Both the position numbers and the translations under genes were made by a program. The notes beneath the pieces were generated by a model that worked only from the letters and a program-made list of their open reading frames with translations, did not search any database and was not told where the DNA came from. DNA of 64,000 nucleotides from Sandaracinus amylolyticus (GTDB lineage: Bacteria; Myxococcota_A; Polyangia; Polyangiales; Sandaracinaceae): the NCBI RefSeq assembly GCF_021631985.1, contig NZ_CP070225.1, forward strand, positions 3,472,001-3,536,000. The letters run 5' to 3'. Below are positions 854 through 4,953 of this stretch, in pieces. Every line of letters begins with the position of its first letter. The stretch's first letter is position 1.

Positions 854-935
854 GCGTCTCCGATGTCACGCGCGCCCGAGCACGTCCACTTCTCCGTCAG
901 GTCGCGCGATCGGATCGTGGTACACCGAGGGCCCC

Positions 936-1835
936 ATGTCGGCGGACGCGATCGACGACGCGCTGCAGGTGCTGCTCGGACGCCCCGAGGGAACGCCGCC
1001 GCTCGCCGCGCTGCGCATTCGTCCCGCGACCGCCGAGGAGCTGCGCGAGGGCACGACCGGTGAGGTGGTGCTCGGGGAGAGCCTCGCGGCGGACACGCTC
1101 GCGCCGATCGAGGGTGGGCTCTTCTGCGAGCGCATCTTCGGCTCGCTGGGCGCGACCGAGCCGACACGAGAGGCGTACCTGCGCGTGCTCGAGCCGCCGC
1201 TGATCCGCGCGCGCGAGGACGACGTGCTGCCGCCGCGCGAGCGCCTCGAGCGCTTCGGTCGGATCACGCTCGCAGAGCCGATCGATCATCCGCTGCTCAC
1301 GCGCGCGTCGTGGACCGAGCTGCTGGGCGAGGCGGGGCTCGAGTCGTGGCCGATCGAGGTGCTCCCGGTGCTGCCGCCCGACCTGCGCGCGGTGGTGCCG
1401 GTCGAGGGCGGCGAGCGGATGCGCTTCGCGGTGAGCGACCTGCACGAGCTCTATCGCGAGGTGATCCAGGCGAACGCGAGGCTCGCGCGCGTGAAGCAGC
1501 TGCGGGTGCCGCCGAGCGTGCTCGAGGTCGAGCAGGGACGGCTCGCGATCGCGATCGCGCAGCTCTTCGACAACGCGTCGACGACGACGCCGAAGCTCGG
1601 CCCCGCGGGGCGCCCGCTGGTGGGCATCCTCGGGATGCTCGCGCATCCGGCGCGACCGCTGTGGGGCACGCTCGCGGAGCTCGACGGAATGGTCGCGCGC
1701 GGCGTGGTGCGGACGTTGGCGCCGCCGCTCGCGAAGCGGAGCCTGCTGGTGTTGTGGCAGCTTCGGGCGCTCGCTGTGGCGATCGACATCGTGGGGGAGC
1801 CGCCTAGCGACTCTGGGGTGGCCACGGTGCACTGA
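936..1835 (+). CDS. RpoC-like protein: diverged paralogue of the N-terminal part of RNA polymerase beta-prime
   Basis: The 299 aa product carries, in the same order as RpoC, several hallmarks of the beta-prime N-terminal region. GGLFCERIFG lies at residues 60-69 (RpoC has GLFCxKIFG). ERFGRITLAEPIDHP lies near 105-119 (RpoC has ERMGHIELAxPVxHIW). LPVLPPDLR is at 143-151, FAVSDLHELYREV at 164-176, LFDN at 210-213, and a GRPL...L segment follows near 226. The four-Cys zinc site between the first two blocks is missing, and the protein ends before the catalytic NADFDGD loop, so it cannot polymerise RNA. An upstream in-frame ATG at 852 exists, but 936 gives the sensible N-terminus. It could bind polymerase, sigma or DNA as a decoy or regulator, or be a domesticated duplicate. 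The role is inference. Confidence 0.75.
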   Translation: MSADAIDDALQVLLGRPEGTPPLAALRIRPATAEELREGTTGEVVLGESLAADTLAPIEGGLFCERIFGSLGATEPTREAYLRVLEPPLIRAREDDVLPPRERLERFGRITLAEPIDHPLLTRASWTELLGEAGLESWPIEVLPVLPPDLRAVVPVEGGERMRFAVSDLHELYREVIQANARLARVKQLRVPPSVLEVEQGRLAIAIAQLFDNASTTTPKLGPAGRPLVGILGMLAHPARPLWGTLAELDGMVARGVVRTLAPPLAKRSLLVLWQLRALAVAIDIVGEPPSDSGVATVH

Positions 1836-1875: not shown

Positions 1876-3000
1876 TCAACGCCGCGAGACCCGAGCAGGC
1901 CGAGCAATCAGATAGCCCTGCCCCAGCTCGCACCCGATCTCGAGACACACGTCCCGCTCGCCCTGCGTCTCGATCCCCTCCGCGAGCACCCGGATCCCGA
2001 GGTCGCGCATCACTCGCGTCAGCGCCGCCACGAGATCACGGCGCGCCGGGCTCTGATCGATGTCGCGCACCAGCGAGAGATCGAGCTTGATGAAGTCCGG
2101 CGGCACCTCCGCCAGCTCGCGCAAGCGCGACTGACCCGCGCCGAAGTCGTCGTACGCGATCTCGATCGCGCGCTCGCGCAATCGCTCGCGCAGCCGGCCC
2201 ATCGCCGCGAGATCGGTGATCGTGCTCTCGTGCACCTCGATCACCGTGAGGCGCCCCTGGCCCACGCGCTGCGAGGCCTCCGCGAGCGCGTCGATCAACG
2301 TGTCGTCCTCGAGCTCCGCGGGATGCACGTTGAGGAAGAAGCGCAGCCCCTCGCCCGCGAGCAGCGGCGCGTCCGCGAGCTGCACCTCGCGCAGGAGACG
2401 GCTCAGCTCCGCCGCGCGGCCCTGGGCCTCGGCGCTGCGGAAGAGCTCGCCGATCGAGCGTGGCGGCTCACCGATCTCCCTCGGCACGTCGCAGCGACCG
2501 AGGCACTCGTAGCCGCGCAGCGCGCCCGTCGCGAGATCGACGATCGGCTGGAAGACCGCGTGGACTCGACGCTGCGAGATCGCGAGCGCGAGGTCGCGCA
2601 CGCCCACGAGATCGCCGCCGCTCGTGCCCAGCACGGTCGCGTCGTCGCGCTGCGCGCTCGGGCGCCCGAGGTGGAACGAGAACGCGCGATTCGCGACGTG
2701 CACCACGTCGCCGGGGCGCAGCCGTCGCGGCTCGGTCACCCGCTCGCCGTTGACGAACGTGCCGTTGCGGCTGCCGAGATCGCGCACGACCCACGTGTTG
2801 CGGCGACGATCGATCTCCGCGTGCTCCTTCGAGACGCGCGTCGAGTGGATCACGAAGTCGGCCTCGGCCGCGCGCCCGATGCGGAACGGCAGCCGCTCGA
2901 GCGTGATGCGGATCGGGTCCTCGTCCTCCGCGGCGCGGTGCTCGAGCCAGGGCACCGATTCGCCCGCGTCGTCCGCCTCAGCGTCGCTCACGCGGCCCAT
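1876..3000 (-). CDS. FHA-EAL protein, probable c-di-GMP phosphodiesterase
   Basis: The 374 aa protein has an N-terminal FHA domain at about residues 30-110, with RIG at 40-42, an SxxH-type S57/H60 and SRNGTFVNG at 78-86. An EAL domain spans about 135-370. The catalytic set looks intact: E165 in YECLGR (EAL written as ECL), N224 in FLNVHP, E255/E258, the DDFGAG pair D284/D285, K305 in FIKLD, E341 in AEGIET and Q361 in GQGY. It should hydrolyse c-di-GMP to pGpG in the cytoplasm, and the FHA domain should let a phospho-Thr partner recruit or gate it. There is no membrane segment. The ATG is preceded by the stop of no co-directional partner except the next gene downstream, which begins separately. 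This is the mirror image of the FHA-GGDEF protein at 38190. Confidence 0.9.
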   Translation of the reverse strand: MGRVSDAEADDAGESVPWLEHRAAEDEDPIRITLERLPFRIGRAAEADFVIHSTRVSKEHAEIDRRRNTWVVRDLGSRNGTFVNGERVTEPRRLRPGDVVHVANRAFSFHLGRPSAQRDDATVLGTSGGDLVGVRDLALAISQRRVHAVFQPIVDLATGALRGYECLGRCDVPREIGEPPRSIGELFRSAEAQGRAAELSRLLREVQLADAPLLAGEGLRFFLNVHPAELEDDTLIDALAEASQRVGQGRLTVIEVHESTITDLAAMGRLRERLRERAIEIAYDDFGAGQSRLRELAEVPPDFIKLDLSLVRDIDQSPARRDLVAALTRVMRDLGIRVLAEGIETQGERDVCLEIGCELGQGYLIARPARVSRR

Positions 3001-4092: not shown

Positions 4093-4953
4093 TCAGCCTC
4101 TGCGCAGCTGCTCGAGGCGCGTGAGGCGCGCGAAATCGGGGCTCGGCCCCGCGCCCGCGTGCTGCGATCGGAACCACGCGAGGTAGCCGTCGAGCACCGC
4201 CTTCGCGTCGGGGAACGCGTCGAGATCGACCTCTTCGATCCGATCGATCACGTCATCGCTCAGCATCATGCCCTGGCGGCGATGCAGCGTGAGCACCCAC
4301 GCGACCCACTCCGAGCCGCCGACGAGCCGCGCGAGGCGCACCGCGAACTGCGCGATCATCGACACGTGCGCGGGATCGAGGCGCTCGCCCGCGGCGAGGC
4401 GCTCGTCGACCTCCTTCGCCGCGCGACGCATGAGCCGCTCCGCCTCGAGCGCCTTGCCCGACGCGAGCGCGCGCTCGATGACCTCGCCGAGCAGCTGGAA
4501 CGTCCAGCTGCGCTTCGGCTCGACCATCACGCCGCTCATCGTGTCTTCTTCGCTCGCCGGCGGCGCACCGCAGTGCGGGCACTGCGGCGAGCCCTCGGGG
4601 TACGGCGTGTTGCACGAGTGGCAGACCCGCATGTACCCGGTCGGACGCGCCGCGCGCTGCTCCGCGCGCACCACCGCGAAGACGAGCTCCTGGGTGCCGA
4701 TGCGGATCCGGTCGCCCTCGCGGAGCACCTGCTCGCCCTTGATGAGGCGGCCGTTCACCCGCACGCCGTTGCGGCTGCCGAGGTCCTGCACCGTCGCGGT
4801 GTCGTCGTGGATCACCACACGCGCGTGACGACGCGAGATCAGCGGATCCTCGATGGTGATGTGACAATCCGGGCTGCGGCCGATCACCACCTCGGGGCCG
4901 ACGAGATCGAACTCCTGTAGCAGGAATCGCAGCCGAAAACGGGGCACAAGCAC
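4093..4953 (-). CDS. FHA domain protein with zinc ribbon
   Basis: The 286 aa protein has an N-terminal FHA domain at about residues 12-95, with VIGRSPDC, SRRHARV and DLGSRNGVRVNG. All key phospho-Thr contacts (R, S, H, N) are present. A short zinc ribbon follows at about 109-131: CHSCNTPYP, then CPHCGAPP. The remaining 150 residues are predicted helical, with no motif I recognise. The start is a GTG (MLVPRFRLRF) with GAG/GAGG close upstream and a TATCCT hexamer about 16 nt before it. It is probably a cytoplasmic adaptor reading phospho-Thr marks from Hanks kinases, which are abundant in myxobacteria. The partner is unknown. Confidence 0.85.
   Translation of the reverse strand: MLVPRFRLRFLLQEFDLVGPEVVIGRSPDCHITIEDPLISRRHARVVIHDDTATVQDLGSRNGVRVNGRLIKGEQVLREGDRIRIGTQELVFAVVRAEQRAARPTGYMRVCHSCNTPYPEGSPQCPHCGAPPASEEDTMSGVMVEPKRSWTFQLLGEVIERALASGKALEAERLMRRAAKEVDERLAAGERLDPAHVSMIAQFAVRLARLVGGSEWVAWVLTLHRRQGMMLSDDVIDRIEEVDLDAFPDAKAVLDGYLAWFRSQHAGAGPSPDFARLTRLEQLRRG

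Follow-up and report, generated by a model that had tools for sequence, protein, structure and literature searches.

P0001, a 299-amino-acid protein of the soil bacterium Sandaracinus amylolyticus, is a free-standing paralogue of the N-terminal (clamp) part of RpoC, the β′ subunit of RNA polymerase, an enzyme whose large subunits are usually regarded as single-copy machinery. Its gene lies in a 64,000-nucleotide stretch of genomic DNA (the window). As read from its sequence, the protein is homologous to β′, has lost the zinc ligands and the positively charged surface, carries nothing catalytic, keeps the clamp-helix hairpin, evolves under selection and belongs to a family of such paralogues. 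We tentatively favour the view that P0001 is a catalytically dead clamp mimic that docks sigma region 2 and titrates sigma in the manner of an anti-sigma factor.

The reading frame contains, in β′ order, the four blocks (GGLFCERIFG through SDLHELYREV) on which the original prediction was built. Pfam model PF04997 (RNA_pol_Rpb1_1) matched P0001 in two stretches (70.1 bits, E = 2.7e-19; curated cut-off, 39.7 bits), the NCBIfam RpoC models matched significantly (E = 1e-26 to 2e-28) and β′ chains in the PDB matched at 6e-26 over two collinear stretches (residues 26–119 and 140–236). Because these matches are long and not of low complexity, the resemblance is not the short low-complexity hit that had been named beforehand as evidence against it. 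The equivalog cut-offs of the NCBIfam RpoC models were far from reached (for example, 93 versus 963.5 bits). We place the start at the ATG at position 936 and not at the beginning of a longer frame from 852, because positions 852–935 differ by indels between the window genome and a congener, G001. The promoter presumably lies within the leader.

Table 1. Features of the P0001 gene and its leader (window positions; residue numbers refer to P0001).
Feature	Position	Strand	Basis or remark
Intergenic leader	854..935	+	Lies ahead of the ATG, after the divergent neighbour gene; 92% identical in G001, with indels
Whole gene, 299 aa	936..1835	+	PF04997, 70.1 bits; PDB β′, 6e-26; dN/dS 0.115
β′ N-terminal strand and zipper block, aa 26–70, ending in GGLFCERIFG	1011..1145	+	E. 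coli β′ 18–63
Zinc-ribbon relic, aa 73–104	1152..1247	+	Length of the RpoC ribbon; four cysteines replaced by P, R, R, E
ERFGRITLAEPIDHP strand (RFGRI-LAEP), aa 105–119	1248..1292	+	β′ 121–232 missing next
LPVLPPDLR and lid-like stretch, aa 143–167	1362..1436	+	PDB matches and alignment
Clamp-helix hairpin, aa 168–213	1437..1574	+	AlphaFold, superposition; sigma region 2 docking element of β′
Rudder-like stretch, aa 214–229	1575..1622	+	Basic residues kept, 1/6
C-terminal extension, aa 236–299	1641..1832	+	No RpoC match

The anatomy of P0001 was read from its alignment to E. coli β′. The zinc-ribbon segment has kept its length and not its sequence, with none of the four cysteines (70, 72, 85 and 88) remaining, and β′ 121–232 and everything beyond the rudder are absent. 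The catalytic loop is missing because homology stops after the rudder; the lack of zinc cysteines and of this loop had been noted originally and holds. The net charge of the shared segment is −4 (pI 5.4) in P0001 versus +12 to +16 in RpoC, and given the loss of five of the six basic rudder residues as well, the nucleic-acid surface is gone. Sequence similarity suggests that the C-terminal extension is possibly related to the tails of three other paralogues (L041, L047 and L079); in the alignment the similarity was too weak to claim a tail as a trait common to the family.

AlphaFold confidence in P0001 was restricted to the hairpin (block means of pLDDT ~71–83), modelled as helices at residues 168–188 and 193–215. 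This hairpin superposes on β′ over ~90 columns at 2.5–2.9 Å. The N-terminal half yielded no confident model, which we regard as a limit of the method because a control fragment of true RpoC was equally poor in the zipper region (its hairpin was similar). The control was modelled best in a region absent from P0001.

P0001 and its G001 orthologue share 95% protein identity (dS 0.218, dN 0.025, dN/dS 0.115), and the gene is under purifying selection. The frame is intact in both species and its coding composition is typical (GC3 93%). The ordinary rpoC of the same genome lies ~0.9 Mb away, and a family profile search of this genome returned no further RpoC-N paralogue. A recent duplication of the genome's own rpoC was not supported by the tree, in which the distance of P0001 from that rpoC is about the same as from distant RpoC sequences. 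Monocistronic in its layout, the P0001 gene points away from its upstream neighbour and faces a convergent gene for an FHA-EAL protein (1876–3000, − strand), close to which lies a second FHA protein (4093–4947, − strand) with a zinc-ribbon-like CxxC stretch. An ECF-type sigma gene is found 2.5 kb upstream (window −2558 to −1650 in G000), with DoxX-like and NmrA-like neighbours; its linkage to P0001 was rejected because the cluster is missing from that place in G001, and comparison of the two genomes revealed no sigma gene stably linked to P0001.

PF04997 was run against 184 genomes from the order and 380 from the phylum, and we read the extra matches. RpoC-N paralogues outside rpoC occur in roughly 30 of ~460 distinct Myxococcota genomes, some as weak matches; the count is approximate because divergent members score near the threshold. 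The 20 genomes of other phyla gave a single PF04997 match each, which was rpoC, a single-sequence scan of genome contigs found no relatives, and the 80 loci from an alignment-based scan look like ordinary RpoC. As far as tested, the family is restricted to Myxococcota. The ordinary rpoC elsewhere in the genome, the low dN/dS and this phylum-wide family bear out the original idea of a domesticated RpoC-N paralogue; that first reading was right in its observations and partly so in its interpretation, and missed that the protein belongs to a large family.

Family members are free-standing or re-domained RpoC-N proteins without the catalytic motif. They comprise a short form (P0001, L041, L047, L079 and L068), a form of ~370 aa (L044, L045 and L048–L050), a zinc-ribbon form (L033, L042, L067 and L070), a TPR form (L078), a TIGR02996 form (L071), a form with a β-propeller-like C terminus, recognized by eye only (L056–L058, L061, L062, L069 and L081), and RpoB/RpoC-N chimeras in open frames of ~840–1,160 aa (L037, L038, L051, L059, L060, L065 and L073). 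The chimeras, present in several Myxococcota families, join the RpoB flap-base region and C terminus to RpoC-N, several ending in an α-CTD; having neither the flap tip nor NADFDGD, they are predicted to be polymerase-like proteins lacking an active centre. The propeller-like form carries a zinc ribbon and a conserved propeller-like region, and is single copy in several related large genomes. In L071 and L072, a TIGR02996 repeat-companion domain (the match being in L071) and leucine-rich-like sequence come after RpoC-N. A separate locus (L063:4429–10872, − strand, in G159) encodes a 2,147-aa RpoB–RpoC fusion with NADFDGD intact beside baseplate-like genes; it resembles the single-chain RNA polymerases of phage type, although the myxobacterial genome that holds it is large. 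In the tree, P0001 groups weakly (75/75) with L079, L041 and L047, and the support obtained (80/95) is compatible with a single origin of all paralogues and with several. Stand-alone proteins of this kind were not described in the literature searched, and the Myxococcota family of clamp pieces is apparently undescribed.

The clamp helices of β′ bind sigma region 2 and alter its DNA affinity (PMC12000874). Their contacts in the σ32 holoenzyme are R275, R278, R281, L282, L285, I291, E295 and M298 (PMC10216364), among which Arg275 has been called essential (PMC8321222). P0001 has A, R, R, V, L, V, E and R at these positions, and thus keeps three of the four polar contacts (R275, R278, R281 and E295) and has lost Arg275. 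Across 23 representatives, eroded groups included, polar sigma contacts were kept in 73% of cases versus 44% for random polar hairpin positions invariant in RpoC (P = 0.0003); for all eight contacts the values were 60% and 50% (P = 0.09). L071, L072 and L069 keep seven of eight contacts versus 9, 10 and 7 of 29 other positions, respectively, and L071 and L072 retain every polar sigma contact in a hairpin that has otherwise diverged. P0001 itself has no overall enrichment (4/8 contacts versus 15/29 other positions). R278 and E295 may be retained for helix packing and not for sigma. The competition for sigma suggested originally is plausible, favoured by the polar docking residues of the family and weakened by the loss of Arg275 in P0001, which leaves its exact partner uncertain. 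The window genome has 74 matches to σ70 region 2 and one to NusG. Among 73 sigma loci, many of them misframed, nearly all readable frames look standard in region 2.2.

In the mechanism that we propose, the zipper strand, lid and clamp-helix hairpin of β′ stand free as P0001, which would act through the hairpin by protein–protein contact. The hairpin would dock one sigma factor or several by their region 2 and keep the docked sigma off core polymerase, making P0001 a polymerase-derived anti-sigma factor or sigma buffer. Because Arg275 is Ala, P0001 would probably bind part of the sigma factors, or bind less strongly than core does. In favour of the sigma mimic we count the retained and modelled hairpin, the kept R278, R281 and E295, the erased nucleic-acid surface, the family-wide excess of polar contacts, the three members with seven of eight contacts, the many sigma factors against a single NusG, the chimeras of β C terminus, β′ N terminus and α-CTD without NADFDGD, and the precedent of the β′ clamp helices, with their effect on sigma region 2 given above. 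Against it we count the missing Arg275, the unenriched contacts of P0001, the marginal family excess over all eight contacts, the lack of a stably linked sigma gene, the binding of NusG to the same hairpin and the possible packing role of R278 and E295. A broader and slightly more doubtful possibility is that the catalytically dead RpoC-N modules and RpoB/RpoC/α-CTD chimeras of Myxococcota are core-derived anti-sigma factors or buffers, each suited to some of the sigma factors in a very large repertoire.

The chief general rival to sigma docking is a rebuilt face with a different protein partner: the clamp scaffold may have been retooled, its hairpin fold kept, in P0001, L041, L047 and L079. 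Arg275 is replaced in all four (by A, H, Y and C), as is R293, and P0001 has a C-terminal tail of its own; with most polar sigma contacts kept in P0001 and all of them in many family members, we consider this explanation possible and somewhat doubtful. NusG is the chief specific rival because it uses the same clamp-helix site: NusG and RfaH touch these helices (PMC9226497), and residue retention cannot separate NusG from sigma as the ligand. P0001 might then modulate elongation or termination, not initiation, but complete NusG binding needs the β subunit as well (PMC9226497) and the genome holds one NusG against its many sigma factors, so that we hold such a role to be rather unlikely.

A role in phage defence, also raised in the original prediction, found no backing: PADLOC models matched none of seven family members, no defence genes lie beside the monocistronic P0001 gene, and matches in phage and plasmid records were of RpoC type only. 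A phage or plasmid origin was rejected, as these tblastn matches stayed at <80% query coverage and <60% identity and a viral contig scan gave none. The diverse, fast-evolving paralogues with their variable C-terminal partners would suit a decoy for the proteins with which phages or competitors attack polymerase; given the PADLOC result, contexts that are not defence-like and strong purifying selection between congeners, a decoy seems quite improbable. The clamp is made of the β C terminus and the β′ N terminus, and the chimeras hold both, as might be expected if P0001 replaced the β′ N terminus on the β C terminus or other core parts and so lowered the level of core. Because the 121–232 subdomain, the zinc ribbon and all post-rudder parts are missing, little assembly surface is left, and we regard such competition as unlikely. 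That P0001 diverges much faster than RpoC (end branch 0.83) would fit a decaying, functionless rpoC duplicate, but a frame intact in two species, the low dN/dS, typical coding composition and a family maintained across the phylum make this already disfavoured explanation very improbable indeed.

If the sigma-docking reading is true, transcription regulators would have a new origin, in a family of natural, catalytically dead clamp modules, and many sigma factors could be partitioned in a new way. The concrete question to put is whether a natural clamp mimic binds sigma and, if so, which sigma factors.

P0001 shares with RpoC collinear homology over the zipper, lid, clamp helices and rudder (the PF04997 region). 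RpoC has in addition its full length, the catalytic barrel with NADFDGD, zinc ligands, the 121–232 subdomain and a basic charge; P0001, short and acidic, has none of these, and on catalytic motif, zinc ligands and length alike it is not classed by sequence as an RpoC. Other Myxococcota paralogues (L041, L047, L079, L044–L050, L067, L068, L037, L065, L071 and others) likewise carry the RpoC-N clamp outside rpoC, but many differ from P0001 in having the zinc ribbon or the full set of sigma contacts, and some are fused to RpoB pieces, α-CTD, TPR or TIGR02996. To our knowledge, no anti-sigma family derives from a core subunit, and P0001 matched no anti-sigma family in Pfam or NCBIfam. By analogy with anti-sigma factors directed at sigma region 2, P0001 may work by competing with core for sigma; such factors are often, though not universally, co-transcribed or linked with their sigma gene, whereas P0001 is monocistronic and stably linked to none. 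P0001 is also comparable with the isolated E. coli β′ 260–309 coiled coil, a free clamp-helix hairpin that binds σ70 and changes its DNA binding according to the work of Arthur 2000 and Young 2001 as related in PMC12000874. That laboratory fragment is artificial and has all contact residues, whereas P0001 is the product of a natural gene and lacks Arg275; if it does bind sigma, its family would be evolution's own version of this classic experiment.
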